Positions 27,640-63,650 of a stretch of 64,000 nucleotides of DNA are shown piece after piece. Position 1 is the stretch's first letter. The number at the start of each line of letters is the position of its first letter. The DNA lies in the NCBI RefSeq assembly GCF_041381155.1, contig NC_091144.1, positions 31,428,980 through 31,492,979 on the forward strand. The letters are read 5' to 3'. The stretch comes from Argopecten irradians. Its lineage: Eukaryota > Mollusca > Bivalvia > Pectinida > Pectinidae. The notes beneath the pieces were generated by a model. It had not been told where the DNA came from. It was given only the letters and a program-made list of their open reading frames with translations, and searched no databases. Made by a program: the position numbers and the translations under genes.

Positions 27640-28097
27640 GAGGAAAGATCTGTGAATAAAATGGGAACAATGACAAGTAATGATCTTTGAATAAAATTGG
27701 AACAATGACAAATAAAGATCTGCTAATAAAATGGGAACAATGACAAGTAAATATCTGCTAATAAAAAGGGAACAATGACAAGTAATAATCTGCTGATAAA
27801 ATGGAATAATGACAATGTAAAGTTCTGTGAATAAAATGGAAACAATGACAAGTAATGATCTGTGAATAAAATGGGAACAATGACAAGTAAAGATCTACTT
27901 ATAAAATGGGAACAATGACAAAAAAATGATTTGGATTTGCTAATAAAATGGGAACAATGATAAATAAATATCTGCTAATAAAACGGAACGATGACAAGTA
28001 ATGATCCGCTAATAAAAGGGGAATAATGACAAAAAATGATCTGCTAATAAAATGGGAACAATGATAAATAAATATCTGCTAATAAAAAGGGAACAAT
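27640..28097 (+). repeat. 35-bp minisatellite, copy A
   Basis: About 13 units built on AATGGGAACAATGACAAGTA plus AAGATCTGCTAATAA. The array stops abruptly inside a unit at AACAATGAC and is followed directly by exon 3 sequence of copy B. The junction shares TGAC with exon 3 (20543-20547 region). Confidence 0.85.
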
Positions 28098-38441: not shown

Positions 38442-39543
38442 TCAAAAAATTGAGAACTCTCCAAAATTAATGTCGTATTCCTCTCCCTTGATATTTGGGT
38501 AATGTCTAGGTTCATTCATATTGCGAAAAGCATTCACGACTCTCTCCCGCTGAACCCTGGCGCTGGACCAGTTTCTACCCCCTGATACCGGGGTCTTAGA
38601 CGAGGTTGAACTGGAGTCACAGTGAAACGAATTCGCTCGTTGTAGACTTTCCTTGAACAACAAAGACTTAAAATCGTCACATATATGCAAACTCACTTCA
38701 CTTCGTCCTCTCTCTTCGATTTCGTACTTTTTCTTCTTTGTCACATCACTCATGTGTATCGGTTTGAACAATACCGGTCGCTCTGTCTTACTTGGGTCGT
38801 CCATTAATACTTTATCGACTACATCATTAGGAAGGTCCACATCACGTACCTTCACCTTTAACCTCCGCGTTTTCGTATTCTCGTCTGTGACATATATACT
38901 AGGCGCATGCTTTCCCGTATAGTACATTGGCGCCGATTTCAGTTTCGGCATTCGCGTGAACGGATCTCTAGGATAATCGTCCTTTAAGTTCTCAATATAT
39001 GCCTTCTTTGGAACTTTTAGAGGTACTTTCCATTTTTCAGGGTTTACATAAGGTGGCGATTTCATTCTAACCGCCTTTGGCTGGGCATTTTCATTTCGTT
39101 CATGAACATTTCCATCGTCGTATTGCGAAAAGGTAGTAGGGCGTCGTTCTACAGGGCTTGGCGTTCTCTGGGTACGGAAGGCCACGTGTACATTGGTTGT
39201 TGTAGATGACCCAGGGTGTTTGATAGATGATTTTACTGACTTCCCTGATGAAGCATTATCTGGCCTTTGGACCTTACTGTTGGCTTTGTGGAGGGATTCC
39301 CCTACTGGCTTTGTCGGCTTTTCCGTCCTGTCTCGTCCCCTGGGACCTGTGTTTTGTGGTGGAAGTTTCTGTTTGTGTAACCATTCCTGATAAGCCTTCT
39401 CCCCATAGAATTCTTGCGCCGCGCGTTTCTCTTCCTCATCTTCCATCTCCTTCATGACCTGTTGCATTTTCAGTTTCTTCAGATAGTCCATTTCCTTAGC
39501 GACGTGGTCTTTTCCTTGGTGCCAACTCTCTGCTGCCAATATT
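38442..39543 (-). CDS. ANKRD53: ANKRD53-like exon 4: helix and disordered tail
   Basis: Acceptor TTCAATTACAG, 1102 bases to the stop TAG/TAA region at 38442. It encodes residues 188-554. It starts with ILAAESWHQGKDH and ends GEEYDINFGEFSIF. Antisense open frames at 38653-39457 are shadows. Confidence 0.85.
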
Positions 39544-42500
39544 CTGTAATTGAATGGAAAATCTAGTAATAAACTCGTTAACAATTACCAACACATTTTG
39601 TGAATCCTATATACATAATTTGAATGAAGAAAATAGCTACATAATTCTAAACTTTAATCCCACCACAAACGTTGTAACAGCATATATACCAAAGGTAAAC
39701 AGTATGACAAAGTTGGCTGAGCCTCAGTTACGATTTTCTACTAACCTTGCACATTTCTTGTGTCCCCAAAGTTTCGCCAGGTCAAGAGGAGTGTGACCTC
39801 TGCAGTCCTTCCCTGTAATGGCGGCCCCTATATCAATCAGCTCCTTAAGGCACTGCACGTGACCCTCAGACGCCGCCTGGTGGACAGGTGTAATACCATC
39901 ATTGTTGGCCCTTCACGTGAGAAAACAAATTATACCTTTATTTAGAGCATGGTGTATCGACGGATTTGGGGAAAATAGTGTTATCGCATTATTGTATCTT
40001 ATATACCTGCTTATGTATTTTGAGTCAACAGTGATGGCTTTAGCAGGCTTTATCCTCAATGTGTATTAAAAGAAATTTTAATCGTTTTAAGCATTGAACG
40101 TGTGTGCATTTGATCCCTGTCACCTAGAAGTGATAAAGCTATGACAACGCATTGTATGGTCCCTTTGAAGAGATCGTTATGCGGAAGAGTTGAAAATTCC
40201 AATGGATTCTCAAACATCAATTCTGATAGGGTGTCAAATCATCTGTTTTATTTTAGGCCAATTTCGGATATGTCTAAAGACCAATTAGATAAAGTCTAAA
40301 ACGGAATGCCCTTCTTAAGCATGTGGTCAATCGGAAAATAGAATTATTTTAAAAACTTGATTAAACTTTAACAACTACTTGAAGAAACGTCAACACGTCA
40401 GGGAATTTCTACCATCAACCTAGAATACTATAATAATACATTTAATGCCTTGCTAGGGAGAGTACCATAGTTATTGTATATGCAACCACACTATGTACAT
40501 ATAATTAACCATTAATGAAAATATTACCATACATCGTAACAAGCCACTTTCTTCTTTCATAATGGAGTGGTGATATACTGGTCGGAAAATTAAAACGAAT
40601 GAATTAAAACTTACACAGAAGCATCCGCCTTCTTGCTTAGGAGATAGGAGAGGCACTGTAGTGCCCTCTTACCCGTCTGGTTACTGATGCAGAGATGAGC
40701 AGCCCGCCAGCCCGTCGTACTCGGCATATTTATATCGAATTTATATTTCTCAATAAGTAGTTTGAGGCATTCCAGACGTCCATGAATGGCTGCAAGATGT
40801 AGCGACGACAACCCCTGAAATGGATACATCGTATAAAGTAAAATCAATACCGCTAATGTCATAACAAAACAACAAATCAAATGTCTCCGTCTTTTACTGC
40901 TACCCGTACATGCAACACCATTCAATACTATTGGTGGTGTCTAAATACAGAGTTTTCTTATAATACATGTAATGATTTGCGGTGAAGGCGGTATATCACT
41001 TTTCCATGTGAGTCCGGAGTTCTACATGGATATTATGACTGGGAGTAATTAAATTTAGTCGGTGTGGGACATATTGTTTGTAATTGAACACTTTCTCCAT
41101 AAAAATGAATATACAGGTCAATTACTGTGAGGGTAAGTATCCCAGTATTTGACGTTTGACATTTGTTTGGCAAACATAACGACATCGTTAACGCCAATTC
41201 CTTCTGACATCAACTACAAAGCATTAAGTAATGGTGACAGAAACTGGCATAAGATCAAAAGGAACTGTTACATTTATCTCTCTTTAGTGCATTATGGTCA
41301 ATTTGAGCACCATTTGTTTGTATTGGCGACTATAAAATAAACTAACTGGAAGAGACATTCTGAAGGTCGCCAGCAATACAGGTTGTCTGTTTGGTTGGTA
41401 GGGTTAACATTGTATAAACAAGGACGGCCTCCCATGGGTGTACTGTGTAGCATGTTTTGGCAGACTGCAGTATGTTGTTGTTGCGACCCGTTGTATAATA
41501 GAACTCTTGTATATAGGTCAAACTGTATGTTATTATCGTGGTGAAGAGTATTCCTGAATTCAAAATATAGTACAACTGAGGCAATACAAATCCTTGTACA
41601 CAATCATCAGCTTGCAATATTGTAACTATAAAAAGACTTTTCGACAGATAGCAGCGTAGTAGGCCGGGCACGTATATTCGTTCTATGGCTATACCAACTA
41701 TATGAACGCTGTGGTTGTTTGCAAATGGCATTAATTCGATTAATTGATAATAATCATCAAGTTGCATCATACAGCTTATATAGTGTTATACCACTACTGT
41801 CGACCTAAAATACGTATAAAACTAAATTGAGTTGTTTGAGTCAGATTGTAAACTAAATACAATTTGTACACAGTAAAATTTCCTAACTTGAATATCAGGT
41901 CAAGAAATCTTGATTAATTATTGGTCAATTTCAGGCCATAATTTTCTTTACCTGAAATTCAGATCAAATTTCATGTGAAATACGTTTTATTCCATGTTAG
42001 TTCATTAACCTTAAATTATATTCTGTTCGTTTCAGGTCAACTTCAGGTAAGCTTTCTAACCAGAAATTCATTCTGGTCAATTTCAGGTTAGGAAATGTTG
42101 CTGGTGTACAGTGAGCAGCAACAGTTTTCCACATTAAAGAAATCCACAACATTCACTTACAATCGTCTTCATTGTTTAATCAGCGAGAGAATCAATCTAG
42201 TCATCTTGTAAGTGTATTCAGTATTTGTGTTGTGTTTGAAGTATTAAATAGAGTGTATCTCTCCAATCTAAACATCTAATACTGTCTTCTAAGTGTACTC
42301 TATCGGTCCTAAGGGGAAGCAATACAATACACTAATACTTTTAAATGGTTATTTTGGGAGATGTGATTTGTCTGTTTACACATACCAGTACATCTAGTCA
42401 TGATAAGAACAATCCTGAATATATACTGGTACAGTAAAACTAGTAAAGAAAATAGCTAAACTAGACTTAATGTTTCCGCTCAGCTTTTTTTTTCTTCTTC

Positions 42501-45500
42501 GTAATTATAGTTCCGAATTTGTTTTTGTCGCCTTGTTTCAAGCATATCTTATTACTTTCTTGCTATAGGGAATGTACTCAATGTTTTTTTTTTTAGATTT
42601 CTGTCATCATATAAAAATATAAGATGCTCCACCGCTGACAAATGGTATTTTTTTCACTATCAAAACAGGAGCAGACGATTTAGTATTTTTCTTCAGTTAC
42701 AAAAGTTGCTTACTTTACACCATTACCGCCATTGAAAAGTTTGAGCTTCTAATTTTGCTTCAAGTAAAAAATATGAAAAATAATTAATTGCATCCCGAAA
42801 AAATTCCGTGGCGCTATATCCTATATAGAATAAGTACTGATTGCGCATGTGCCAAAGGCAAGACAAATTATTTTATATTATTTTTTGTGTTAATTAGACA
42901 TATATATACGCGATTAAACACCAATTATTGTTCAAATGATGAATGTCATTTGTGCACTGTCGGCGGTGGAGCATCTTTAACTAACAATAAATAGTGGTCA
43001 AACTCAAGATAATAAAATACATTAATTGGCCACCATGTATACATTTACCTCTATACCCAGTATAACAAATAAATCTTGGTTTGGCTTGTGCTAACAGTAA
43101 GAGAGTCTTGTTTTAAGCCATATAGTCTATCCAGTACATTAAACATTATATTGTCAAGGGGTTAATTGACTTTGTAACCAATCCTTCCGATCGAACTGAA
43201 CAAAACCTCCGCGAGTCCATATTAATCTGGAGAGCAGCAGTTATAACACAGGCTTTTGATTCTCTAGTCATATAGACTTCTATATAGCATGTATAATACT
43301 GGGTCTTACCAGTATTATACATAAAGTTGTCTGAATATTTATAGAATCAACAGCCTGTCGTTAAAGTAACAGAAAGAATTCTTCCACTCAAAAGAAACCT
43401 GGGTTGAGCTGAACCTACAATGTACATAAATCTAAATTAGACCTTATAAAATTTATAGGTATGTCAATTATACAAAACACTTCTTCAATGCATAACGATA
43501 CTTACGGATGTGTCTAGAAGATTGGGTTCATTTTCATAAATAAACCTATTAAGATTGCCATCTCGTAAAAGTATGTAGTCTTTAATACATAAGTACTCTG
43601 GATTTTAAATAAGGCTAAGCCTGTATATCTAAGCGTATGTAATTAGCATCTATACGTATTAAATTATTCCTATATATCCCTAGGGAAAAACACAGCAATT
43701 CATTAAATGAATTTAAAAACGTTAATTTGGGGGATAAAAAGTGTTAGCCCGAGATACTCTGCCCTGACACTAGACTTAGACATTATAACAGATAGATGTC
43801 TGGCGTAGGGCCAGAGCGCAGTAGTACTCGAAAACCTGGAATAAGCCGACACCGTTTGGTATCGGGCCAGGTCATCTCCGATTGAGACTACTTACAGAAT
43901 ATTACCACCGAGAAGCCCCACTTACCTTGGTCTTTTCAACAAATGAATAATTTATCTACTCATAGTCATCAATTTCATCACACATGCACGTTCTATAGTG
44001 TCAACATAGTAGTTTCTTATCCGCAACTTTAAATTTCCCTCGTCGTCGTCGCCATTTTTCTCGTAGTATGCAAATCACCTTTAATCTCGACGGATTGCTA
44101 TATTTGGGTAGATATAATATTCATTTGTTTAATAGACTAAGGTTAGTGATGCTTCTCGGTGGTCAGTCTGAATCGGAGATGACCTGGCCCGATACCAAAC
44201 GGTGTCGGCTTATAAAAAGTGTGTACCCATATAGAGCTGTCACCATCGTATTAATTCCGAAGTGTAACTAGATTTTCACGGGATCCTTTGAAACATGTAC
44301 GGGTGATGGCACATACATGTATAGTACATAAAAACCGATTGTGTACAAAGTCATATTGTATGTGCTATGTTGAATTAATAGAGTAAGCTAACATCGTAAC
44401 TAAAGTAAATATTCACGATTTATACGTGTACAAAGTAAATAAATTGAATATTCAAATTTGACGTACATGTAAATAAACACAAATCTAAATAATCATAAAA
44501 TATAAATACATGGTATTCCAGGAAATGTTATAAACTGGAGATTTTTTGTGGATTTTTCACTCGACTCACACCAAATATACAGTACAGAATGTATATATCT
44601 TTCTCTTATCGTAGAAAGTATCAGGTATTTGCAATGGCAATTAAAAAGTTCATACTTAACTGTCGCGTTTAATGCTCGACCGCCGACACAGCATAAATGA
44701 TCTTCATCATTTGAACAATAATTGGTGTTAATCGTGTATATATATGTCAAATTAACACAAAATATAACATAAAATAATTTATATTGCTTTTTGAGCATGC
44801 GCAATCAGTACTTCATTCCATGTAGGATACAGTGCCACAGATTTTTTTTGGGATGCAATTAATTATTTTTTTTATATTTTTTACATGAAAAAATGGAAGC
44901 TCAAACTTTCCAATGGTGGTAATGGTGTAAGGTAAGTAACTTTTGTAACTGAAGAAAAATATATTTGTCAGCGGTGGAGCATCTTACACTCAGCCATAAA
45001 ATTATTCCTTTACAATTACCTATAAGATGGTCAATTAGTCCTTATAACCACACATTTGAATATAAAATACACAACTAGAAGATCGTCTAATAAGATATAT
45101 GTATATGTTTAAGCTTCTCATATTTCAGACAACGGACTGTTTAGATTATAGAGACACACATGTATCCAGTTACATTCCAATAATGTACAGGATTTCCGAT
45201 ACCCAAACAGATGTGGTTTTGAATTTCGATATTTTAATATTACAGGTTTCGAATACGATCTAAATGGAGGTGGTCTGACAGGTGGGTATTGTTTGAGTAC
45301 ATGCACAGGGATCTGAGAATTAGTTACTGATGATATAATCACGGACCCGCCAGAGTGACTATAAGACCATTTTTAGACGTTAAAAATCGATATTCTACAT
45401 GGTAATATATACTCGTATTTAGTACCATGTAGAATTTGATTTTTATCGTTTTTTGATCTACACCTCTAAAACGTCTAAAAATGGTCTTAGGGCACTCTGG

Positions 45501-46257
45501 TGGGTCCATGGTTATATCATCTGTAACTAATTCTCAGATCCCTGTGAGTACATGTACAAAGTATGAAGTTTCTTAGTGTTGTCAGATGGTATCCAAAAAA
45601 ACAATTATAATGTGTTTCTTTGTCAATATCTACATGATAATTTAATTTGGAATAACTTAATTCAGTTTTCTGTTATTGATTTTGAAACAATCAAAAATGC
45701 TTTCACTTTCATAGACTTATAGATTACACTGTATATAAACATATTAACAGCAAAACATGAACATTCAGTCCAGCCGAAGTTCATTTGATCACTAAATGTT
45801 TTCAGTTTTTGTCTGTGTTGCATTGGTTAATATAGATACATGTTATAATGTACATATAAACACCGACGTTCGTGCTGTTACACCTCGACCGATCATTATC
45901 TAGACACTCGAAAGTATTTCCGGTTGAATGACTCTTTCTTTCACATGATAATATCATAGCAACGGCTGTAAACAAATGAACTTCGTTTTAAAATTAAACA
46001 AATAAACGAAAGACAGTTTATACATTACAAATATATCTATGAAAATCATATAGACCTACATTTTTGTCGAAGTTGATTTGTCCCCTAGCGTCACGTAGAC
46101 TTTGTTTTAGCCATTCAACATCTCCTATAGCAGCCGCCATAAATTCGTCGTCGGCGATTTTTTTGTCATTTCCCCCAGCTCTTGGTCTGCGTTTCCTCTG
46201 ATACCGGTCAGTTTCCGTCCCCGGACTCGCCATAGAGGACTTTCCAACGTCCGGCAT
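38442..46257 (-). CDS. ANKRD53: Ankyrin repeat domain-containing protein 53-like
   Basis: Four exons on the minus strand join in phase: 46257-46060, 40814-40615, 39910-39746, 39543-38442 (stop), giving 554 residues; human ANKRD53 is of similar length. Residues 1-40 are basic and disordered. An EFMAAAIGDVEWLKQSL helix precedes four ankyrin repeats at about 67-187, with the hallmarks GLSSLHLAAIHGRLECL, DGITPVHQAASEGHVQCL and GHTPLDLAKLWGHKKCAR. A charged helix follows (KDHVAKEMDYLKKLKMQQVM, then EDEEEKRAAQEFYGEKAYQE) with WLHKQKLPP, and the rest is a low-complexity Pro/Ser/Lys tail. The order AAA-x-G-x-VEWL, four repeats, then [KD]-rich helix and WLH matches vertebrate ANKRD53, which is a microtubule/spindle-associated protein in mammals; a role here is inference. 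Intron 3 is short (202 bp) and the intron after exon 1 is 5.2 kb. Confidence 0.85.
39746..39910 (-). CDS. ANKRD53: ANKRD53-like exon 3: ankyrin repeats 3 and 4
   Basis: Acceptor CTCACGTGAAG, donor GCAAG|GTTAGT, 165 bases, phase 2 at both ends. It encodes residues 133-187. It was found by extending the ankyrin pattern and is not a standalone open frame with a start codon. Confidence 0.85.
40615..40814 (-). CDS. ANKRD53: ANKRD53-like exon 2: ankyrin repeats 1 and 2
   Basis: Acceptor ATCCATTTCAG, donor TCTGT|GTAAGT, 200 bases. It encodes residues 67-132, including LSSLHLAAIHGRLECLKLLI and GWRAAHLCIS. Confidence 0.85.
41385..41535 (+). mobile_element. Fragment of dispersed repeat R1
   Basis: ACAAGGACGGCCTCCCATGGGTGTACTG, then GGCAGACTGCAGTATGTTG and ATAATAGAACTCTTG follow the R1 order seen at 48310-48430. 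It lies in intron 1 of the ankyrin gene. Overlapping minus-strand open frames (41298-41770) are produced by the repeat. Confidence 0.5.
41865..42110. mobile_element. MITE family E (TGTACACAG ends)
   Basis: The left end TGTACACAGTAAAATTTCC and onward (CTAACTTGAA) is matched by the complement of the right end, TTCAGGTTAGGAAATGTTGC then TGGTGTACA. The interior has several diverged copies of TCAGGTCAA/ACCTGAAATT. It is about 245 bp, non-coding. Confidence 0.6.
42622..42976 (+). mobile_element. MITE family A, copy 2
   Basis: Ends AGATGCTCCACCGCTGACA and GTCGGCGGTGGAGCATCT. The right flank is TTAA, the left flank TATA, probably a mutated TTAA. Full-length interior. Confidence 0.75.
43843..44211. 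mobile_element. Foldback element with near-perfect 41-bp arm cores
   Basis: AAGCCGACACCGTTTGGTAT then CGGGCCAGGTCATCTCCGATT (43843-43883) is exactly mirrored by the complement at 44171-44211. A further complementary block (ACCACCGAGAAGC near 43904 against GCTTCTCGGTGGT at 44151) extends the arms. The loop is about 230 bp. The small open frame at 44068 spans one arm and is not a gene. Confidence 0.65.
44668..44984 (-). mobile_element. MITE family A, copy 3 (internally deleted)
   Basis: Reverse orientation. One end reads GGTGGAGCATCT (44984), the other ATGCTCGACCGCCGACAC. About 40 bp next to the right end, including the AGGAGCAGACGA motif, is missing. Confidence 0.65.
45304..45546. mobile_element. 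MITE family D, copy 1 (long hairpin)
   Basis: CACAGGGATCTGAGAATTAG at the left is complementary to CTAATTCTCAGATCCCTGTG at the right. The pairing continues inward through GATGATATAA, GACC(C/A)..CAGAGTG and AAGACCATTTTTAGACGTT against AACGTCTAAAAATGGTCTTA. Almost the whole 243 bp can fold back. It lies in intron 1 of the ankyrin gene. Confidence 0.7.
46060..46257 (-). CDS. ANKRD53: ANKRD53-like exon 1: start and N-terminal region
   Basis: ATG at 46257-46255, donor AAAAAT|GTAGGT, 198 bases, phase 0. It encodes residues 1-66. A second in-frame ATG lies eight codons later (MPDVGKSS-M), so the start is not certain. Confidence 0.75.
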
Positions 46258-47289
46258 CCTGATAGTGGGTTGGATTTTAACCGACAGACCACATGGACCT
46301 AATTACCTCCCTAGCTACCGAGTTATAATGGGCACCTGTTAGCGGACTACGCCATGTTGTTGACATAGGCTAATTTATTTTACGGATTTCTCCGGGGATT
46401 TAAAACGAAACGACACATGCGCATACGGGGTCCACGTACGGTACTTACAGTCGACTTCACAAAATGTATACAACATTCACAAATGATGCTGTAGATATTA
46501 GACCTCTAAAATATGGATAGTTATTATTGTTTATGAAAGACATATATAATTACAAAAATGTACTTTAATAATGCTATATACATGCATACAATACAATGTG
46601 TATAAATTATAAAATATAAGTCGCATATAATGTAATATAAATATGTGTTCGCTTTCGTAGGCCTACATTTGTCTTTGTGCATTCAAGAGCCATGTGTAAA
46701 AACGATTTAAATAGACATTTAAAAAACAACCAATGCATGACAACTGCCGGACTAAATGAAATGATACAGATATAACTTATTCATTCACGAACTCGTGAAC
46801 ATGATCATGATGTGACTAAACAGGGATTTAAACGCCTATGTTAAACTACATACAATGTATTGTATGACAAGTAATTGAGCGTTTGTAACAGCACGGGTCT
46901 TCACAATGTAATACTAGATTATGGTGATTTAATCTTCATTTGTTCTATTTTCTTCAAATGTAATCAAGTTTGTCCTTGCATTTCTATTCCATGTAAAACA
47001 AGAACTAAGAAAAAGTCGTTTATACAATTAAACTTCCGTACAGTTATGTACCTTTGTTGGAAAATAATATAAAATATCGATACATATACACATATATATA
47101 GACACTATTGGAAACATAATGGCATGGTTAAACGTTACTTAGTGAAAGAAATAAGATCATGAATTGTTGTCTTTTTCCCCGCATGTTTTGCAAAAAAAAA
47201 AAAAAAAACCAAAACAAACAACAGCAGACAAATAAACTATTTACACATCTACAGCAAGGCCTTTATAATAAGTTATTAATCGTGATGCA
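46258..47289. other. Intergenic region upstream of the ankyrin gene
   Basis: The ankyrin promoter should be just above 46257, where GC content rises somewhat (46180-46460). Beyond that the sequence is AT-rich, with a poly(A) run near 47192-47208. No gene is seen. Confidence 0.4.
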
Positions 47290-50443: not shown

Positions 50444-50732
50444 CTAAGACTCATTAGATCCTTGCATGTCTTTATCACTGTTGTCGTCTTTACTTGATGG
50501 CTGATCCTCTCTTCCATCTGTAACAGATTTGCCGACAGAGTTGTAAGGCACCAGTTTACACTTTGATAACACTTTATCCAATCTAGATATAAATGTATCT
50601 ACGTCTTCTTTTGTCATTCCAATGCCAGCTGCTGCAGTTAGGTAGGAGCAGGGGTAAGCATCCGAATGGGCACCAAAGTTCGAGAATTTCTGTCCGTTTA
50701 TGTCACTTATCTTCCCTGTTGGAGCTATAACC
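50444..50732 (-). CDS. SEPSECS: SEPSECS exon 10: C-terminal region and stop
   Basis: Acceptor CTCCTTCTTCAG, 289 bases, stop at 50444-50446. It encodes residues 400-495. [15 protein letters not shown] and [13 protein letters not shown] match the conserved end of the family; the last 30 residues are acidic and not conserved. Confidence 0.93.
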
Positions 50733-53700
50733 CTGAAGAAGGAGAGAAGCATATCACAGGATGTTAATTTTCTAATTTTGTGTATGAAACCAAATGCTTA
50801 TCTATTCTATCTTTACATATTATAGTTAGCGCTCTTGAAGGTTGGTAACAATGGTTACCGTATTTCACCGCAAATAAGACCCCTTCCGCAAATAAGACCC
50901 CCCCACCTATTTTGACACTTTTCCAGACTTAGGGGGGATGTCTGCAAATAAGACCCCCCCCCCACCTATTTTTCAGTTTACTGGATGATGGATTTGAGCA
51001 ATGGAGTAATTAAAGATATCACCAAAATGACTTTGTATCGGAACTTCTTTTTGTTTGTTTTTTCGGCATAGAAAAATCACGTAGTAAACAACTGTTTGTG
51101 TGTTTGTTATTTTTGTCATTATTTTGCGGGCACAATTCACATTATTTTCCGCAAACAGTATGATGTTACGCTACCAAATACAAGATGTCAGAATCAATAC
51201 TGACCCGCAAGGGCAGATAACTCTGTAATACGCAAATACAAAATACATATATAAAATTGAAAGTTTGATATGTAAAACATAATGACTCAGCCTTTAGCAA
51301 CCATCTCTGAATAATGCTAATCACATGTACTGATATTAACACAAATTTCGGAAAAAAAACCATGAATCCATTTTCTGACTAAACATTTTCCTTATAAGAC
51401 ATTAAATTGAGTGAATTTCTCCTTAGAAAAACTTATGATATACTCAAGATTTAACAGGTAAGGTATACTAGCATAAAAGTGTAACTTTCCACATTGATTT
51501 CTGTAGAATTCAATAAGTTACCTTGTTCCTGAGACACAGCGTGTAAACAGCTTGGAGCCTATATCAGTAGCACTGGTTCCTTCTACCATTAGAGTCATGG
51601 CTGTAAACAAGACAGGGGAACATCACACATATCATATAACCTTATTTTAACATCTTACATACCATATCATACTAAACTTATGTTAAAACAAGACAGGGGA
51701 ACATCACACATACCATATCATACTAAACTTATGTTAAAACAAGACAGGGAACATCACACATACCATATCATACTAAACTTATGTTAAAACAAGACAGGGG
51801 AACATCACACATACCATATCATACTAAACTTATGTTAAAACAAGACAGGGGAACATCACACATACCATATCATACTAAACTTATGTTAAAACAAGACAGG
51901 GGAACATCACACATACCATATCATACTAAACTTATGTTAAAACAAGATGGGGAACATCACACATAGTCACATATGAACCTGTGTAAGTTGTATTCAATGT
52001 TTGTGATTACATTTCCATCATATACAAATTTAACTCATAGATATTATTATTCACAGGGGATTGATCGATCCATGCAATGATTTTGTTTTTTTGTTAACCA
52101 TGCTTATTGAGAAATTCCTCTAATTATATATTCAATATGGGGCGCTATGATTGTGAGGTACTAAACCAAAGATATAAGGTTGTGTGGTAATTACACATAG
52201 GTAGATGGTTGTGTGGTACTTACCCATAGATATATGGTTGTGGGGTACTTACCCATAGATATATGGTTGTGGGGTACTTACCCATAGATATATGGTTGTG
52301 GGGTACTTACCCATAGACATATGGATGTGGGGTACTTACCCATAGATATATGGTTGTGGGGTACTTACCCATAGATATATGGTTGTGGGGTACTTACCCA
52401 TAGATATATGGTTGTGGGGTACTTACCCATAGATATATGGTTGTGGGGTACTTACCCATAGATATATGGTTGTGGGGTACTTACCCATAGATATATGGTT
52501 GTGGGGTACTTACCCATAGATATATGGTTGTGGGGTACTTACCCATAGATATATGGTTTGTGGGGTACTTACCCATAGATATATGGTTGTGGGGTACTTA
52601 CCCATAGACATATGGATGTGGGGTACTTACCCATAGATATATGGTTGTGGGGTTCTTACCCATAGATATATGGTTGTGGGGTACTTACCCATAGATATAT
52701 GGTTGTGGGGTACTTACCCATAGATATATGGATGTGGGGTACTTACCCATAGATATATGGTTGTGGGGTACTTACCCATAGATATATGGTTGTAGGGTAC
52801 TTACCCATAGATATATGGTTGTGGGGTACTTACCCATAGACATATGGATGTGGGGTTCTTACCCATAGATATATGGTTGTGGGGTACTTACCCATAGATA
52901 TATGGTTGTGGGGTACTTACCCATAGATATATGGTTGTGGGGTACTTACCCATAGATATATGGTTGTGGGGTACTTACCCATAGATATATGGTTGTGGGG
53001 TACTTACCCATAGATATATGGTTGTGGGGTACTTACCCATAGATATATGGTTGTGGGGTACTTACCCATAGATATATGGTTGTGGGGTTCTTACCCATAG
53101 ATATATGGTTGTGGGGTACTTACCCATAGATATATGGTTGTGGGGTACTTACCCATAGATATATGGATGTGGGGTACTTACCCATAGATATATGGTTGTG
53201 GGGTACTTACCCATAGATATATGGTTGTGGGGTACTTACCCATAGATATATGGTTGTGGGGTACTTACCCATAGATATATGGTTGTGGGGTACTTACCCA
53301 TAGATATATGGTTGTGGGGTACTTACCCATAGATATATGGTTGTGGGGTACTTACCCATAGATATATGGTTGTGGGGTACTTACCAATAGATATATGGAT
53401 GTGGGGTACTTACCCATAGATATATGGTTGTGGGGTACTTACCCATAGATATATGGATGTGGGGTACTTACCCATAGATATATGGTTGTGGGGTACTTAC
53501 CAATAGATATATGGTTGTGGGGTACTTACCCATAGATATATGGTTGTGGGGTACTTACCCATAGATATATGGTTGTGGGGTACTTACCCATAGATATATG
53601 GATGTGGGGTACTTACCCATATACATATGGATGTGGGGTACTTACCCATAGATATATGGTTGTGGGGTACTTACCCATAGATATATGGTTGTGGGGTACT

Positions 53701-56700
53701 TACCCATAGATATATGGTTGTGGGGTACTTACCCATAGATATATGGTTATGGAGTACTTACCCATAGATATATGGTTGTGGGGTACTTACCCATAGATAT
53801 ATGGATGTGGGGTACTTACCCATAGATATATGGTTGTGGGGTACTTACCCATAGATATATGGTTGTGGGGTACTTACCCATAGATATATGGTTGTGGGGT
53901 ACTTACCAATAGATATATGGTTGTGTGGAACTTACCAATAGATATATGGTTGTGGGGTACTTACCTATAGATATAAGGTTGTGGGGTACTTACCCATAGA
54001 TATATGGTTGTGGGGTACTTACCCATAGATATATGGTTGTGGGGTACTTACCCATAGATATATGGTTGTGGGATACTTTACCCATAGATATATGGTTATG
54101 GAGTACTTACCCATAGATATGTGAATGCACAGTACTTACCAATAGATATATGGATGTGGGGTACTTACCCATAGACATATGGTTATGGAGTACTTACCCT
54201 GAGATATATGGTTGTGGGTTACTTACCCATAGATATGTGAATGCACAGTACTTACCAAAAGATATATGGGTGTGGGGTACTTACCCATAGATATATGGTT
54301 GTGGGGTACTTACCCATAGATATATGGTTGTGGGACACTTTACCCATAGATATATGGTTATGGAGTACTTACCTATAGATATATGGATGTGTGGTACTTA
54401 CCCATAGATATATGGTTGTGGGGTACTTACCCATAGATATATGGTTGTGGGGTACTTACCCATAGATATATGGTTGTGGAGAACTTATCCTTAGATATGT
54501 GGACATAGGGTACTTACCCACAGATATATGGTTGTGGGGTACTAATACCCATAAATATGGATGTGTGGTACTTACCCATAGATATATGGTTGTGGTTTAT
54601 ATTGAGGAGTTTCTGCCCGTGTTTGGCTGCACACTTTGATAGAGATGTGTGTAGATAGCTATACATCTCCTTCCTCTGTTTAACCAGAGCCTTGTAGCCT
54701 TGAGACCCCATACTGAGTAAGGTAATAAACAGGTCCATGGTCGGTGACATTGACGCTCGCCCTGTCAAAATACATATTAACCAATCTCAAGTGATGAATG
54801 TTTTTGCTTATTTGCCACCAAAATGAGAGAAAGCAATGCACATTCCATCACATCATCTACTTTCTTCATAAATCAAAACTTTTCTGGAGATATATTTTTC
54901 TTCCCTTTCCACCAACCCCTCCTCCATCTTTTTTTAAAGCTGATCAGTTTAAGTAATGCATATTAACAAGAATACCACACAAGTGGATGTTTCGCCTGTA
55001 CAGTAGTTAAAACCATTACAACAAATAGTTATTGTACATAATTTGGTTGAAATCAGATAATAAATACTAAAGTTATTGAGCAGAAACCAAGAAATTGTCT
55101 GTTTTGACAAGTTTAAAGTGCCATAACTCTTACAAATATTGACGGATTTTGACAGTATCAATCACATCCTAGATCTCATTGCAATAAAGAAATATACAAT
55201 ATTTGGTTAAAATCAGATAATAAATATTAAACATATCACACGGACACCAAGAAATTGTCTGTTTTGACAAGTTTAAAGTGCCATAACTCTTACAAATATT
55301 GACGAATTTTGACTAGTATCAAACCAATCCGATCATCTTATTAATATAAAGCGATATAACAAATTTGGTTAAAATTGGACAAAGAAACCTTTTCTCGGAT
55401 GCCGCCAACGCTGACACCGATGCCAACATATAGTGATACCTATATGTCGCCTTTGGGTTGCATTACAGGTGACACAAAAATACCTGGGTTAATGTATATA
55501 GAGGTTACACAACGAGTGGCTGTTGGATATGGAATTTATTCCACATGAGCGAGTTATTTTTTAAAAGTTACAAAAGACACTAGCTTTAGCGAGTGTCTTT
55601 TAAAAAATAACTTACTAGTGTGGAATAAATTCCATATCCAACAACCACGAGTCGTGTGACCTGTTTCTACCACAATTACATCCGCTTTTAGCCGATAGAT
55701 ATACGGCGAGGATAAGTACGCTATCCAACAGCAGTTTTGGCGTCAAGCGGCAATCACAGCATAGCGTGACGTCACTCGATTATTGATGACGTTGACAAAT
55801 GATGACACGACACTCAGAAAGACGTAGTTCGGTCAAAGTTCATCGTGTCAGCCAATCAGAATGCGTACAGAGTTTATACCACGTGTGGTATAAACAAATT
55901 GTTAATCAACAGCTGCATCGTTTATTTGATACCCTGAGAGTTGAATAACACTGACTATTGTGGTAGAAAACAGAATAAGACATATTCAACGGAGAGAAAT
56001 TGGCCAAATAGTATAACGCTACTGTTTGACTAATGTGCAGCTGCAAATTAAACTTATCTAAATTAAAGTAAACTTATCTAAATTAAAAGTCTATGTGTTT
56101 GATAAAGAAATAACTGCTTCATAATACAATAATTGTAATCAAACATACATTATATCCTTGTGTATTTTTCGTTAAAACTTGAATATAATAATACAGCAAG
56201 CATATTATAAATACAGGATATGGATTACTTTATACACCATACATACCAGGGTAGGTTTTGCTGATCTGTTCCAGTAGTTTAACATCAAGTCCAGCTATAA
56301 TGGAGCCTCCGACAGGTACCATAAAGTTTTTGTCTGTACTCTGGACAAAAACATCTACTCTCCCTGTCCTAGCAGCCTATCAGTAGAGAAAATAACCGTC
56401 AACAAAACTTTACTTCAAGCCATCTACCATAAATTGTACAAACACAATTATTTGTAAATTATCTCCCCTTATACTCTTAATGTCAAAGTTTTATTTGTAG
56501 TTTTTCTCAATCTAAAAATAGTCTTTGTAAGTTCATGAACTTCATGGTATATGTTGATTTGAAAGACATGTCCTATTACTTTATTGTTTGACAAAGGATT
56601 ATCTCCCATTAGTTCTATGTTAATTTCCCCCCAAATTATTTAGATTATGTAATATCTAACTCATATTCGAATGTTGGTGGAGTTATCTCCCTTATAGTTC

Positions 56701-59700
56701 TGATTTTTGTGGTTACCCCATCTAGTAAACACTGAGCACTAAATAGCTATATTAGCTCCTCTAGCATTTAAGTTTAAATGATGAGTTATCTCCCTCTACC
56801 TCTACTTACCTGCTGTATAAGGTGCGTACACTTGGTACATTGCAGACCATAGGCGTTGTTTATAAGATGTGGAATGTCGTTAACTTTACATATCTGTCCT
56901 ATCTCCTCTAGTCTACAACACAAATATATTGTGATATGATTAATTGATTTAAAATAAGATCTGTTGGTCTTTACATTGGCTTTAGTTGTAACATGTACAT
57001 GTGTGTACTACACTGCTTTGCTAGACAGCTATGATTTTTAACGACTCTGACCACAGCCAACTATACATGTATACGATAGTCTTTCATCTAGTAGTAATTC
57101 CCTCACTAATGTCATAATCCAAATTTTAAATGATGACGGTAGAATCTATTAAGATATTATAATAATACCATTCTCTATAATATTGTAAACCCAGTGTACA
57201 TGAATAATTACATACCAAGATGATATATGGCTACTCATTTCTGTTAGAATTACTTTTTATGAAGTACCGTAAGTGATCTCAGGTAAGAATAAGGTTGTAA
57301 GGATGTAACCATCCACAGGTAGGCAGTACACACACACCTGTCTGGGGCTCGAGGTGCGAAGCAACTGGTAGTGGTAAAGATACAGAGGATATTAGAGGCC
57401 CCCAGCTCAGTCACCTTATCACGGACCGCCTGTACATCTGTCCTCAACTCGTCTCCTTCTAGTGTGTTCTCTATCACTACTGGGGTAAGTCCTGTAATGA
57501 TATCAGTATTTATTGTTCTCTATCACTACCAGGGTAAGTCCTGTAACGATATCAGTATTTATTGTTCTCTATCACTACCAGGGTAAGTCCTGTAATGATA
57601 TCAGTATTTATTGTTCTCTATCACTACCGAGGTAAGTCCTGTAATGATATCAGTATTTATTGTTCTCTATCACTACCGGGGTAAGTCCTGTAATGATATC
57701 AGTATTTATTGTTCTCTATCACTACCGGGGTAAGTCCTGTAATGGTATCAGTATTTATTGTTCTCTATCACTACCGGGGTAAGTCCTGTAATGATATCAG
57801 TATTTATTGTTCTCTATCACTACCGGGGTAAGTCCTGTAATGGTATCAGTATTTATTGTTCTCTATCACTACCGGGGTAAGTCCTGTAATGGTACCAGTA
57901 TTTATTGTTCTCTATCACTACCAGGGTAAGTCCTGTAACGATATCAGTATTTATTGTTCTCTATCAGGGGTAAGTCCTGTAACAATATCAGTATTTATTG
58001 TTCTCTATCAGGGGTAAGTCCTGTAATGGTACCAGTATTTATTGTTCTCTATCACTACCGGGGTAAGTCCTGTAATGATATCAGTATTTATTGTTCTCTA
58101 TCACTACCGGGGTAAGTCCTGTAATGATATCAGTATTTATTGTTCTCTATCACTACCGGAGTCAGTCCTGTAATGATATCAGTATTTATTGTTCTCTATC
58201 ACTACCGGAGTAAGTCCTGTAATGATATCAGTATTTATTGTTCTCTATCACTACCGGGGTAAGTCCTGTAATGGTACCAGTATTTATTGTTCTCTATCAT
58301 TACCGGAGTCAGTCCTGTAATGGTATCAGAATTTACTGAAGTCTATTTTCGTAAAAATGAAATACTTGAAAACTTTTAAATCATGAAGATGAAGAAAATT
58401 ATTTTCAAACAGCACTCAAGAAATTACGTTCTTACTCAGCTACATATTCACAAGTAGAACTGTTAAATTGTGGAATAGTCTACCTTAAGACTGATGTAAT
58501 ATCAGTATCGAACATTACAATACAACTGTTTCAAAAATAGACTTGGTAAAACTTGGAAAAATCAATATATAATGTAACAATAATGCAGCAATAACCAGAA
58601 TATGAACTCTTGATCTATTGGCTAATTGATAACATATTCACCCCTGAAGACATATATAGACCCTTCTAGTTCAAGGGCTGGAATAGTTCATTTTGCAATT
58701 TCAGGGTGAATGAGGGACTTTAACTGGTATTAATGCCAGTACTGGAAATTATCTTTTTCTATAGTTATATCTGTATCTATGTGAGGATTTGATGCAAAAA
58801 AAAATATTGATCAATCAACATCCAGGATGTACACAAACCTGCAGTAATAATGGACTTAATACAGGATTTCTGGTCAATACGTGGCCATATGACATACTTG
58901 GCGTTTGGTCGACTTTGTCTGAAGGTCAGCATAGAGAGCACCATACTCATACCCGTTGCCATGGGCACCACAAAACAACTCTTCACGGAGGAAACACCTG
59001 TTATTTCGAAATATTAGAAGTATAAGGTGAACTAAACTGTTCATTTTAGCATCAAACTACTTTTATGGCAAATTAAACATGAAGCGCTAGAGCACTTCAT
59101 TAAATTTGCCACTGTACAGTTGACATTCATACTCCCATAATTGCCAACTCAATGCTTACATTTACATTTGAAAACAATTTTATGATGAGATCTGAAGAAA
59201 TTTTGCATCTTTTATGAATAAAGAATTCAGTATTGTAAAAGCTGGAATAGCCATTTGAACAGCCATTTTCTAAGATCGCTTGCATGACAATTGTGACGGC
59301 AATGATAAGTTGATAATGAAGTCATCATAAGAGGATGGCAGTTTATGGACTGATGAATGCCAACTGCACTTGGTAAGATTACATAGTGGGGCTGCAGTGA
59401 AAATGTACCGTACACATGTATATATCAATCACTGCCCTGCACCCTAATTGGATGACAGAGCAATAACACAGAGCAGGAATGATACAAATCATCCTTAAAA
59501 TATAATGAATTCTTCATAGGAGAACAAAATGTACAACACAAAACTCAATCTGATTAAAATACAATAATTCATTTAATTCATTAACACGTGCAAGTACATA
59601 AAATGTTCATACCTGAGAGTTTGATGAGGTCGAGAGCCAAACTGTTTGTTAATTTCATTATCAGACTGGACCCCGCAGCCTTTGGTTGTATGGCAGTAAT

Positions 59701-60617
59701 TTCTCCTGATCGACCAATTCCATGACCAAAACTGAAATTTATAACTACATATGCTTTAACACAAATTATTCTACTTAAAGTATGTTTCATAAAAGCATTT
59801 TAAAAGCATTTCTATTTATAAATTTATAGCAAATATTTTGAAATATGTAAAAATTCATTTTTTATATTTTTTAAATTACAAATCAATCTGCACTAGATCA
59901 CTTTTTGTATTTAATGTATTACAACTCTTACTTGTAATGTCGTTTTAGCACTAAAGGGGAGAAAACTCTTGCTTCCCTCTCCCCAACTCCGCAATTTCCA
60001 GGAAAATTGTTGCTATCCATCACTGAAAACTCTTGGAGGAGAATTTCAATAGTAAGGTCACTCCATCCTTCCTCTGGCAACTTTTTCTGTTAAATAAAAT
60101 AAAAAATTGATGATTGTGGTATTATTCCGAATTTGCATATTACAGAGTTATCTTCTGCACTTGTGAGTAGGTATTGATTGTGACGTCATGTGTTTGCGAG
60201 TGTAACGTCATACTTTTCGGAGATAACACACGTGAACTGCGCTCACAAAACAATGACGTAACAATATATACCTACTCGCAAGGGAGCTAACTCTGTAATA
60301 TGCGAAGACAGACTATATTTCAAAATATTTCATTAAATCAAAAACATTGATGTTAATCTGATAAGCAATATAAAAGATACACATGTAACAAAGTTAGGTA
60401 TGACTATATATATCTTGGTACCCAGGTGGTGTTTTTCTTGACTTGAGAAATAAATAAATTTCAAATAGCTGTATAAATATTCCTATGTCCATTATACATA
60501 TACCTGTTCTAGAAGATGTCTGATCTTGTTTTGGTGGACATGTTTGGCCTGTTGTCCCTGCTGGACATATGTATCTGGTATCAACTTCTCACAAAGTTTG
60601 TAACAGTCACTGTCCAT
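50444..60617 (-). CDS. SEPSECS: O-phosphoseryl-tRNA(Sec) selenium transferase
   Basis: Ten exons on the minus strand join in phase to 495 residues (human 501): 60617-60504, 60086-59932, 59731-59613, 58997-58839, 57491-57338, 56912-56810, 56376-56247, 54761-54576, 51600-51522, 50732-50444. The enzyme uses PLP and selenophosphate to turn phosphoseryl-tRNA(Sec) into selenocysteinyl-tRNA(Sec), the last step before UGA-directed selenocysteine insertion; it acts in the cytosol as a tetramer. Visible hallmarks are [16 protein letters not shown] (61-76), HGIGRSGEI (93-101), [40 protein letters not shown] and [15 protein letters not shown]. The PLP lysine is K284, and R75, R97, S98, Q105 and R313 fall at the same numbers as the human phosphoserine-binding residues. 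The C-terminus is Ser/Asp-rich, as in animals. The gene is intact. Its oddity is three minisatellites built on its own splice junctions (see separate entries). ATG lies one base after an AG, so an upstream 5' UTR exon is possible. Confidence 0.96.
50865..50985. repeat. GCAAATAAGACCCC repeat fragments in SEPSECS intron 9
   Basis: Three copies of GCAAATAAGACCCC with CACCTATTTT between them lie within 120 bp. Sequences of this type are common dispersed repeats in invertebrates. Confidence 0.5.
51170..51245. mobile_element. MITE family C, half copy
   Basis: Only the right end is present: CCGCAAGGGCAGATAACTCT and GTAATACGCAAA match the end of the copies at 47290 and 60125. Confidence 0.5.
51522..51600 (-). 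CDS. SEPSECS: SEPSECS exon 9
   Basis: Acceptor CTTGTTTACAG, donor AACAAG|GTAACT, 79 bases. It encodes residues 374-399, including [16 protein letters not shown], which aligns with the LGSMLFTRQVSGAR segment of the human enzyme. Confidence 0.92.
51601..51965 (-). repeat. 51-bp minisatellite at the exon 9 acceptor
   Basis: About seven units. On the gene strand each unit contains GATGTTCCCCTGTCTTGTTT, the same pyrimidine tract that precedes exon 9 (CTGTCTTGTTTACAG|CC), but in the repeats TTT is followed by TAACATAAG instead of ACAG. So the tract, not the exact AG, is amplified. The open frame at 51781-51966 is the repeat read in one frame (17-residue period). Confidence 0.85.
52150..54595 (-). 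repeat. 29-bp minisatellite made of the exon 8 donor junction
   Basis: About 80 units. On the gene strand each unit is CCACAACCATATATCTATGG (last 20 bases of exon 8) followed by GTAAGTACC (first 9 intron bases). The exon-side copy at 54576-54595 encodes conserved residues, so it is the parent. Units nearest the exon (54070-54575) and at the far end (52150-52210) are diverged, and the middle is nearly uniform, with recurring variants such as ACATATGGATG. The array fills the 5' part of intron 8. Confidence 0.93.
54576..54761 (-). CDS. SEPSECS: SEPSECS exon 8
   Basis: Acceptor GTATTTTGACAG, donor CTATGG|GTAAGT, 186 bases. It encodes residues 312-373, with [20 protein letters not shown]. The final 20 bases encode HNHISM and are the coding part of the neighbouring minisatellite unit. 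Confidence 0.93.
55020..55380. repeat. Duplicated 170-bp unit in SEPSECS intron 7
   Basis: GGTTGAAATCAGATAATAAA and the block GACAAGTTTAAAGTGCCATA..TTACAAATATTGACG occur twice, about 175 bp apart, with a third partial start near 55360. This motif is a common dispersed repeat in molluscs. Confidence 0.6.
55504..55977. mobile_element. Compound foldback element
   Basis: TGTTGGATATGGAATTTATT then CCACA (from 55521) pairs with its complement ending near 55645, forming a 160-bp hairpin; its centre is AAAGACACTAGC/GCGAGTGTCTTTT. A second pair (CTGTTTCTACCACAAT near 55661 and ATTGTGGTAGAAAACAG near 55957) encloses about 300 bp. It lies in SEPSECS intron 7. Confidence 0.6.
56247..56376 (-). CDS. SEPSECS: SEPSECS exon 7: PLP lysine
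   Basis: Acceptor CTCTACTGATAG, donor ACCCTG|GTATGT, 130 bases. It encodes residues 269-311. [12 protein letters not shown] carries the Schiff-base lysine K284. Confidence 0.94.
56810..56912 (-). CDS. SEPSECS: SEPSECS exon 6
   Basis: Acceptor TTGTGTTGTAG, donor CAGCAG|GTAAGT, 103 bases. It encodes residues 234-268, including [20 protein letters not shown], equivalent to the human DIPHIVNNAYGVQ segment that lines the PLP site. Confidence 0.93.
57338..57491 (-). CDS. SEPSECS: SEPSECS exon 5
   Basis: Acceptor ATATCATTACAG, donor CAGACAG|GTGTGT, 154 bases. It encodes residues 183-233, with [15 protein letters not shown] and [12 protein letters not shown]. Its first 27 bases form the coding part of the neighbouring 49-bp minisatellite. 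Confidence 0.93.
57465..58335 (-). repeat. 49-bp minisatellite made of the exon 5 acceptor junction
   Basis: About 18 units. On the gene strand each unit is ATAAATACTGATATCATTAC then AG (22 intron bases: branch-point-like TACTGAT plus 3' splice site), followed by GACTTACCCCGGTAGTGATA then GAGAACA (first 27 bases of exon 5, A to G at one site). Two units are about 10 bp shorter. The parent is the exon copy at 57465-57491, which encodes conserved residues. Confidence 0.93.
58839..58997 (-). CDS. SEPSECS: SEPSECS exon 4
   Basis: Acceptor CGAAATAACAG, donor ACTGCAG|GTTTGT, 159 bases. It encodes residues 130-182 ([37 protein letters not shown]), among the most conserved parts of the family. Confidence 0.94.
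59613..59731 (-). CDS. SEPSECS: SEPSECS exon 3: phosphate-binding loop
   Basis: Acceptor ATAAATTTCAG, donor CTCTCAG|GTATGA, 119 bases. It encodes residues 90-129. [20 protein letters not shown] contains R97, S98 and Q105. Confidence 0.94.
59932..60086 (-). CDS. SEPSECS: SEPSECS exon 2
   Basis: Acceptor TTTATTTAACAG, donor TTACAA|GTAAGA, 155 bases. It encodes residues 39-89, including [18 protein letters not shown] and the GNCGVGERE loop with R75. Confidence 0.94.
60125..60313. mobile_element. MITE family C, copy 2
   Basis: Ends TTGCATATTACAGAGTTATC and GCTAACTCTGTAATATGCGA, with inner GAGTAGGTATTG / ATACCTACTCGCA. The interior again holds TGACGTCA (about 60181). It lies in SEPSECS intron 1. 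Confidence 0.7.
60504..60617 (-). CDS. SEPSECS: SEPSECS exon 1: start
   Basis: ATG at 60617-60615, donor GAACAG|GTATAT, 114 bases, phase 0. It encodes residues 1-38, with IPDTYVQQG and IRHLLEQ matching the family start. The residues before IPDTY are less conserved, so this start is likely but not proven. Confidence 0.88.
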
Positions 60618-61668
60618 CCTACAACATAATTTTTTTTTTTATTTTATGTATGTGTGTATATAGGTTTGTACAATCTATATATCATTACAGAGAATATATC
60701 ACTTGATAGAACCAGATATTCAATTATCAGTTATAAATTATAATCCCAACATACATGCAAAAATAGTTTTGAATAGATGATCATAAATTCTACATTATAT
60801 ATTGTCCAGTAGAAGTGACATTGTACAAAGTGCCCAATATCTAAATCTTTATGGAGATATATATGATTGCATGTCAGTGGAATGTTCACTTGTTTCGCAT
60901 ACTGTACATTATATTTGTATTGATATCAGTGATGCATCAATCAATATCTGCAAATACATTTTGTATGTGAAAAGTTCATAACCATATAGTTCATACTCTC
61001 TAGCATGTACTACAATGTACATGACAATATAGATCTAAAATAATCTGTAAATTATTTTCCTTTTTCTTTTATCTTTAAGCTAGTGTTTGTTAACATCTGA
61101 CATGCTATATGTACATGTACATTTTGTTTATCCTGCAACTGCCCCACACACTGCCGGATAACTACTGCCGGATAAATTTGTGCTTTATCCGTCAATACAA
61201 AATGCTTTATCCGTCAACACAAGCACATGAATTTGTTCCATATTTGATGGAACGTTTTCTAACTTAACCCAGAACTTTAACCTTCCGGTGAATGAAATGT
61301 CATTCAATCCTGCTAAAAATTGATGTCACATTCATCTGAATGACGTTATTTTTACGATATCGAAAATCTTGTGTGGTGGTGTCATTTTTTTCTTGGCTCA
61401 AAGCATTGTACCCATAATGTAATTCTTTGATGTTTTAGTAGCATTTTTATATTGTTTAAATGATATTACACACTGAATAGAACCACAGGTACTGTTTCCA
61501 AAAGGGCTTATATATTTCCCACGGAAGTGAAAAGGAGTACACTCTCATTCGGTTTAGTGAATGAATCTTTCCCTCCACATCAAATAAGCGTCTCTCTTTG
61601 AGCGAAACCAAGTAAATAAATGGCAAGTTACTTTCGTTATGAATGTCATAATGGCTGCAGAATAAACA
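60618..61668. other. SEPSECS upstream region
   Basis: Should contain the promoter or a 5' UTR intron. There is no GC-rich block next to the start codon. An inverted CCGGATAA..TTATCCG motif lies near 61155-61215. No other gene is seen. Confidence 0.4.
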
Positions 61669-61817
61669 GAATACACGGTTATTATCTTACAATACAAGGT
61701 TTATTTTGGTGCTTGACACGGAAAGCCGAGACGACTCAGTATAGCATCGTCCTCTCGGCTTTCCTAAGTCTCGCACCAAAATAAACCTTGTATTGTAAGA
61801 TTATAACCATGTATTCT
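61669..61817. mobile_element. 149-bp near-perfect hairpin element
   Basis: The left arm AGAATACACGGTTATTATCT, ACAATACAAGGTTTATTTTG, GTGC is matched by the right arm GCACCAAAATAAACC, TTGTATTGTAAG, ATAACCATGTATTCT. An inner pair GAAAGCCGAGACGA / TCCTCTCGGCTTTC tightens the fold. The loop is only about 15 bp, so the transcript would form a long double-stranded stem. Confidence 0.7.
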
Positions 61818-61831
61818 ATCTGTCATTTTTA

Positions 61832-62185
61832 AGATGCTCCAACGCCTACAGAGCATAAATGATATTCATTTTTTAACTATAATTGGTGTTTAATCGTGTA
61901 TTTATATGTCTAATTAACACAAAAAATAATATAAATAATTTATTTTGACTTTGGTGCATGCACAATCAGTACTTCATTCCATATAGGATATAGTGACACG
62001 GAATTTTTTTCTAGATGCAATTAATAATTTTCATATTTTTAACTTGAAGTAAAATTAGAAGCTAAAACTTTCAAATGGTGGTAATGGTGTAAAGTAAGTA
62101 ACTTTTGTTACTGAAGAAAAATACTAAATTGTCTGCTCCTGTTTGTGGTAGTGAAAAAATACCATTTGTCAGCAGTGGAGCATCT
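61832..62185 (-). mobile_element. MITE family A, copy 4
   Basis: Reverse orientation. Ends AGATGCTCCAACGCCTACA and GTCAGCAGTGGAGCATCT. The right flank is TTAA, the left TTTA. Full-length interior. Confidence 0.75.
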
Positions 62186-63650
62186 TTAATGCAAGAGTGT
62201 TATATATCTGTAAAAGGGCAGTGAATTTTTTGAGTGCATTTGGGGCAAAAATTCAGCCCCTTCCCCTACAAAAATTGAGCTGTATTTTCCCAATTTTATG
62301 TAAATATTTTCCCAAATAAAGAAAAACCTCTGCTAAATATATGCATTTAAAGGAAGGAAAAATGTAGTATTTCCCCAAATTAAAAGGCACAGGCCCCTGA
62401 AATGTTCATATACAAAAATCACTGAAGGGATAGGTAACAGAATCTAACATTGAAATTTTGTCCTTAATCTTAAATTTCAAAAGCTGTTTTATTTGATACT
62501 ATCACTTTAAAATGTCCGCCTGGCAAAGGGGAATAATGTTAACGTTGTGTATATTTTGTAGCCACAGTCACATAGTTTTGCATGAAGTGAAAGTAGATAT
62601 GTTCAATGCTTCATACATATACATTATTTGTAATGTTTTCAACGCCAGGAATTTACTAAGGCTATGATATATAAAACTTGTTTTTGGTAATTATATATGC
62701 TCACAATAAGCAATATAGAAACAATCGATATCCCTTGCATTGTACTGTGCTCTCAAATAGGATTTGCTTAAATTGCATTAATATTTTGATAAATAATAAA
62801 TTAATGAAAATACCTACAGTATTTTATGGCGGCTTCAATGAACAATTAAAAAATAATGTAAATGGGCTATCGATCTATCAATACAATTTTTAGCAGGTCA
62901 GATAATCAGAAACATTAGGAAGAGTTAAAATGTATTAAATACAGATGTTGTAATTTTAGGTTCGTGAGTACAGTGCATTCATCCACGTACCCTGCACCCG
63001 TGTACCTACATGTACATTTTTACATAATGTAGTTAAACATGTTAGCCTACTGATAGCTGTAGCTGGCGATGCATCCAACAGGTGGGAATAGTATGTCTTA
63101 AATTGAAGCATAGCAAATCTCATGCGACATACATTTTGTATTCTTAGGTAAGTAAATGATTAGACGAAATGTGTTTTAAGGTCACAGTACCCAAATCGGA
63201 TCACCAAAACAACATTTTCTTCTTTCTAAACCAAATTTTGCAACTGACCTTTTACATATCGTGTTTTTTCATAAAAAGGCTATGCCTGACGAAGTTCAGA
63301 CAGCTCCACACTGTCATAGTCGCGTGCGCGCGTGAATTATGACGTCACAAACATTGACAGATGAACTTCCGGTTTTTACGGTAAAACTTGGTTTTACCAG
63401 TATTGGTATCGCAATTCCGGAACTAGCTTTTTACCCCCCCGGCTGGTGTCGTGAAGAATAAACTGAATAACCACACATTTGTGGTATATGTAGTTGTAAT
63501 TTGCACCCAGATACAATATAAACTAGTTTAGAATCATTCTGTAAACTTATTCAGCAGCATCAATATCATTTTAAGTGGATTGCGAAGAAAATAAGAAAAT
63601 ATAGTGAACTGCATTTCATTAGTAGATTAATAATATTCCCGTGGCAAACA
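62186..63650. other. Gene-free sequence
   Basis: Non-coding. A GC-richer stretch with TGACGTCA and alternating CGCGCG lies at about 63320-63350, followed by a small inverted pair GGTAAAACTTGGTTTTACC. It could be regulatory or part of another repeat, but I cannot assign it. Confidence 0.4.

Follow-up and report, generated by a model that had tools for sequence, protein, structure and literature searches.

How can a splicing machinery find the right 5' splice site when the exon-intron junction that it has to recognise recurs dozens of times in the intron that follows? This question is raised by a SEPSECS gene on the minus strand of a 64,000-nucleotide stretch of DNA (hereafter the window). The original prediction had placed about 80 tandem 29-bp copies of the exon 8 donor junction at 52150..54595, and had read them as a piece of coding exon that was amplified, along with its 5' splice site, into the intron. 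We asked how this array and the rest of the gene are built, whether such arrays belong to a known class, and which of the many splice sites is probably used.

The SEPSECS gene

Our gene model joins 10 coding exons into a product of 495 amino acids plus a stop codon, and all 9 introns are of the GT-AG type (Table 1). Exon numbers refer to coding exons counted from the one that holds the ATG, a count that agrees with the label "exon 8" used previously. The product aligned with human SEPSECS (3hl2; residues 3-457, E = 1.5e-184) and was matched by the Pfam SepSecS family (E = 4.2e-149). The junctions are therefore placed by homology, not by splice-site consensus alone. Where exon 8 joins exon 9, the alignment with the human protein is gapless at the junction and reads HNHISM-AMTL against HNPISL-AMTL. 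A search against Rfam gave no matches at gathering scores.

Table 1. Coordinates of the SEPSECS gene, its coding exons and its junction-associated arrays within the window.
Feature	Position	Strand	Basis
SEPSECS gene, coding exons 1-10	50444..60617	(-)	Gene model, human SEPSECS, Pfam
Coding exon 1	60617-60504	(-)	Gene model
Coding exon 2	60086-59932	(-)	Gene model
Coding exon 3	59731-59613	(-)	Gene model
Coding exon 4	58997-58839	(-)	Gene model
Acceptor array, 18 units, ending with the authentic intron 4/exon 5 junction	57465..58335	(-)	TRF, sequence, unit alignment
Coding exon 5; the last acceptor unit takes its exon portion from the first 27 bases	57491-57338	(-)	Gene model, unit alignment
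Coding exon 6	56912-56810	(-)	Gene model
Coding exon 7	56376-56247	(-)	Gene model
Coding exon 8; final 20 bases supply the exon portion of donor unit 1; intron 8 begins at 54575 with the authentic donor	54761-54576	(-)	Gene model, human homology
Donor array of 84.4 copies of a 29-bp unit; exact GGTAAGT 75 times; the authentic exon 8/intron 8 junction forms unit 1	52146..54595	(-)	TRF, unit alignment
51-bp array, 6.3 copies, just upstream of the exon 9 acceptor	51649..51965	(-)	TRF
Coding exon 9, partner of the exon 8 donor	51600-51522	(-)	Gene model, human homology
Coding exon 10	50732-50444	(-)	Gene model

A donor array and an acceptor array in one gene

TRF described the donor array with a period of 29, 84.4 copies, 92% matches and a score of 4225, and wrap-around alignment on the minus strand resolved it into 84 complete units plus a partial one. 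The sequence of unit 1 (54595-54567), CCACAACCATATATCTATGG|GTAAGTACC, consists precisely of the end of exon 8 followed by the authentic donor with which intron 8 begins. The predicted run of about 80 junction copies is thus borne out. The coding exon is the parent of these copies, as its bases align with human SEPSECS across the junction, and a piece of it was amplified into the intron together with the 5' splice site. The statement that all copies carry ATCTATGG|GTAAGTACC was too strong: the last 13 bases (ATGGGTAAGTACC) are common to 62 of the 84 complete units, 49 units are identical to the consensus over their whole length, and the exact GGTAAGT occurs at the real donor and at 74 decoys.

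Variation among the units is unevenly distributed. Counting 29-bp units only, the mean number of mismatches per unit is 2.62 on the exon side (units 2-24), 0.40 in units 25-82 and 5.0 in units 83-84. Unit 1 equals the consensus while just 5 of the next 17 units do so, which fits the expectation if selection holds the real junction.

The same gene contains a 3' counterpart at exon 5 that the original prediction overlooked. Its units measure 49 bp in 16 cases and 44 bp in 2, and consist of 22 intron bases ending in TTACAG followed by exon bases, of which the longer units have 27 and the shorter ones 22. TACAG|GACT is kept in all 18 units, and the exon 5 bases in the unit encode LTPVVIEN, where human SEPSECS has FEPVVIEN.

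Repeats at the other junctions

We compared a 40-base window from each of the 18 junctions of the gene with the rest of the 64,000 nucleotides. Two of the 18 had copies elsewhere at 75% identity or more (79 and 17 copies), and the other 16 had none within the window at this threshold. As a control, 200 random 40-mers were drawn from the gene outside the arrays; 15 had at least one copy and 2 had at least three.

A third array, with a 51-bp unit, copies the polypyrimidine tract that precedes exon 9. This tract, TTCCC(C)TGTCTTGTTT, is present six times in the array, the real one included, and the 40-base window of the exon 9 acceptor has no further copies at 75% identity. We rejected this array as a full junction-spanning repeat of the kind discussed below ("mirage") because its copies contain no exon bases. 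If three arrays were placed at random in the array-free gene, the chance that all would lie within 30 bp of a junction is about 0.0035, a post hoc value for one gene. The TRF edge of the 51-bp array lies 49 bp from its junction, and at a limit of 50 bp the chance becomes 0.016, which is likewise post hoc and for one gene. This calculation omitted an intron 7 repeat (55040-55375; 2.1 copies of 160 bp), which touches no junction. Outside this gene, the window has long arrays of 25-bp and 35-bp units, in which inspection by eye found no splice junction.

Relation to known systems

Minisatellite-like repeats that span exon-intron boundaries have been described in lancelet genes under the name "mirages" (PMC3087553, PMC3902484). 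The reported cases are the globins BflGb6 and BflGb9, Adh3, troponin C and PGBD5, the last two having been added by PMC3902484. It had been claimed that no minisatellite class defined by an exon-intron junction had been described, and this claim fails, since mirages are defined in just this way (PMC3087553). The original prediction is consequently supported in part, for the amplification of an exon end with its donor, and unsupported as to the absence of a known class.

The lancelet reports describe several properties that the SEPSECS arrays share with mirages, namely tandem repeats across a boundary that may be of either type, an authentic gene section that forms one edge unit, a homogenised interior from which the boundaries are excluded, and splice signals in many units. 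In both SEPSECS arrays, the unit spans an exon-intron boundary and a single edge unit is the authentic section, the first in the donor array and the last in the acceptor array, with all others intronic. In the donor array, the interior is homogenised and the boundary units are excluded from this. The unit lengths of 29 and 49 bp fall within the 10-72 bp given for the Adh3 mirage, and two full arrays in one gene are also reported for lancelet PGBD5. The SEPSECS arrays differ in size, with 84 units at the donor and 18 at the acceptor, compared with 2 to 7 in those lancelet globin and PGBD5 cases for which a unit number was available. Membership of the mirage class is the best explanation of the SEPSECS arrays. 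None of the matches listed in our literature search named a mirage outside lancelets. Should the animal studied here be something other than a lancelet, the distribution of mirages extends beyond a single animal group, here with about 12 times more units than the lancelet cases that have 2 to 7; should it be a lancelet, the gene adds a further case to those from lancelets.

Further systems share part of this arrangement. In human segmental duplications, internal tandem repeats at exon-intron boundaries are able to supply splice sites, and 27 intron modifications were tied to novel introns (PMC2812944); in SEPSECS, by contrast, the ancestral junction remains and the intron that holds the repeats was already there. 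Tandem duplication around AG|GT, as a route to intron gain, likewise copies coding sequence with splice signals (PMC4974935), but no new intron has come from the SEPSECS copies. We rejected intron gain because the intron 8 acceptor (51601) lies outside the donor unit, the intron 4 donor lies outside the acceptor unit, and the exons join as in human SEPSECS.

Origin of the arrays and choice of splice site

We estimate a probability of about three in four that both arrays are mirage minisatellites derived from junction-spanning tandem duplication, with splicing kept accurate by exon definition. A short tandem duplication across a splice junction would leave one exon and its site whole, and the extra copy would land in the intron. 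Replication slippage or unequal exchange could then have multiplied the intronic copy, 29 bp by 84 at the exon 8 donor and 49 bp by 18 at the exon 5 acceptor. The variation among units suggests growth and homogenisation as in other minisatellites. Because the copies sit solely on the intron side, the real site is the closest one across the exon, and long flanking introns would cause sites to be paired by exon definition, favouring the real one. As decoy use breaks the frame, selection would hold the real junction and decoys would be tolerated while unused. A corollary is that an array, by lengthening its own intron, would strengthen the very mode of recognition that makes it harmless.

Splicing is thus probably accurate: the real donor should be chosen, as no decoy lies closer across the exon, and exon definition should work in its favour. 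The original prediction had emphasised that the right donor must be picked among some 80 near-identical sites. How that donor is picked has, in principle, a published answer. In one study, five exon-definition minigenes carrying two donors of identical strength used the upstream donor exclusively, and in human data competing donors of nearly equal strength led to upstream choice in the long-intron (exon definition) class. Against this, when these data were not filtered by site strength, all four architecture classes favoured the downstream donor (PMC9225289). Introns 7 and 8 around exon 8 (1485 and 2975 nt) and introns 4 and 5 around exon 5 (1347 and 425 nt) all exceed the 365-nt introns given for those minigenes, and 1 of the 74 decoy donors would produce an exon 8 of 250 nt or less, the exon-size cut of PMC9225289. 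For human acceptors, the preference for the upstream site is described as reduced, though not as reversed, in the long-intron class (PMC9225289). The acceptor half of the argument is therefore less certain, and splicing at the acceptor array may likewise be accurate. In the lancelet reports, mirages did not disturb regular splicing (PMC3087553, PMC3902484).

We also considered RNA structure as a discriminator of the real donor, given that GGGUAAGUACCC can form a 4-bp hairpin over the donor. This candidate was rejected because the opening energy of the real donor ranked 60, 65, 12 and 16 of 75 (1 being the easiest to open) with flanks of 25, 40, 60 and 100 nt, respectively.

With 75 donors of the same core in a row, 18 near-identical acceptors, and a protein that is broken by the wrong choice, the gene is in effect an experiment of nature in the choice of splice sites, and exon definition could be tested quantitatively by comparing alleles that differ in array length.

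Alternative explanations

The consequences of decoy use bear on whether the decoys might serve as alternative donors that give protein variants, as is stated for the minisatellite of human IFI6 (G1P3, 6-16; Turri et al. 1995). That minisatellite also gives many splice donors at an exon end, its downstream units are said to be used and to give isoforms (PMC4526556), and the SEPSECS decoys have the same G|GTAAGT core as the real donor. However, the 29-bp unit shifts the frame: 24 of the 74 decoy donors stay in frame with the exons that follow, and not one of these 24 leaves it open, so the donor array lacks downstream units that, as in IFI6, could be used with an open reading frame. A stop would be placed more than 50 nt before the last junction by 73 of the 74 decoy donors, and each of the 17 decoy acceptors would give an early stop, at codon 190-208. 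Protein variants are therefore unlikely to arise from the arrays, and we regard alternative donor use as very improbable. Slightly less probable still is that the donor array is an assembly artefact or was misplaced from another locus. Its true length could differ from the assembled one, but the 84 units fall into 28 distinct types and diverge at the edges, which resembles natural turnover, and unit 1 forms one uninterrupted sequence with its parent exon. We give the least credence to an unrelated intronic minisatellite that spread into exon 8 and supplied its end. The identity of exon end and repeat would fit growth in this direction, yet the exon bases encode HNHISM, which aligns with its human counterpart and continues without a gap into exon 9, and the similarly conserved arrangement at exon 5 would require the accident to have happened twice.

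More serious, though still improbable, is the possibility that the decoys are functional. In this view, U1 snRNP sites and decoy acceptors would form a splicing brake, causing either retention of intron 8 or 4 or the decay of diverted transcripts, and SEPSECS output would be tuned through the length of the array. Within the gene, 75 of the 87 GT sites having at least 7 of 9 matches to CAGGTAAGT fall in the donor array, the acceptor core is invariant among its units, and early stops would follow decoy use. We looked for erosion of the donor cores across the decoy units and did not see it. Of 82 decoy units, 74 have an intact GGTAAGT, the highest number for any of the 29 circular 7-base windows, and by fewest mismatches it ranks first or second of the 29, depending on the test. 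Of the 58 mutation events in units 2-24, 4 fall in GGTAAGT against an expectation of 14 (permutation p about 0.011), in a count that includes units 9 and 18, both of 30 bp with an insertion inside the donor. The decoy donors in these units look better kept than the rest of the unit, a suggestive observation that pure neutrality would not predict. Against this, the tests over all decoys gave p = 0.060 and 0.085, with 0.052 for distinct types, and the latter two values omit the three 30-bp units, including units 9 and 18. Ranking first among 29 windows has a chance of 0.034, and the units are not independent. Moreover, the acceptor array has other invariant stretches too, and the published lancelet mirages reportedly leave splicing undisturbed. 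It is accordingly a long shot that some 74 U1 sites and 17 decoy acceptors in a selenocysteine-pathway gene constitute a selected, length-variable splicing brake, and that junctions are favoured for the origin or survival of minisatellites in some animal genomes. Mirages with tolerated decoys and probably accurate splicing remain our preferred reading.

Other features of the window

On the minus strand, GGGAGATAA occurs four times at 56459-56794, in SEPSECS introns 6 and 7 or beside exons 6-7, where 0.37 occurrences are expected in the window; we take it to be a common motif of mollusc genomes. Self-complementary stretches at 61668-61817, 55502-55662 and 45297-45551 are 84%, 78% and 75% identical to their own reverse complements and are possibly foldback or MITE-like. 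A dispersed repeat of about 290-360 bp is present in both orientations, with copies 85-89% identical at 3617-3978, 42621-42980, 61828-62189 and 44672-44961.

The window also holds a tandem segmental duplication (20544-24847 and 28097-32418), its copies being 92.7% identical across an alignment of 4376 bases. Each copy leads into 25-bp and 35-bp minisatellites, which are the same for the two. The duplication has one edge in coding-like sequence, GACCGGATATG, at 20545 and 28098, and there the second copy meets the end of a 35-bp array. Cysteine-rich, EGF-like coding stretches were noted by eye on the plus strand at 17989-20688; two stretches were scanned and gave no Pfam match at 0.001. A minus-strand ankyrin-repeat gene occupies 38442-46302, with Pfam Ank matches at 40611-40940 and 39724-39912.
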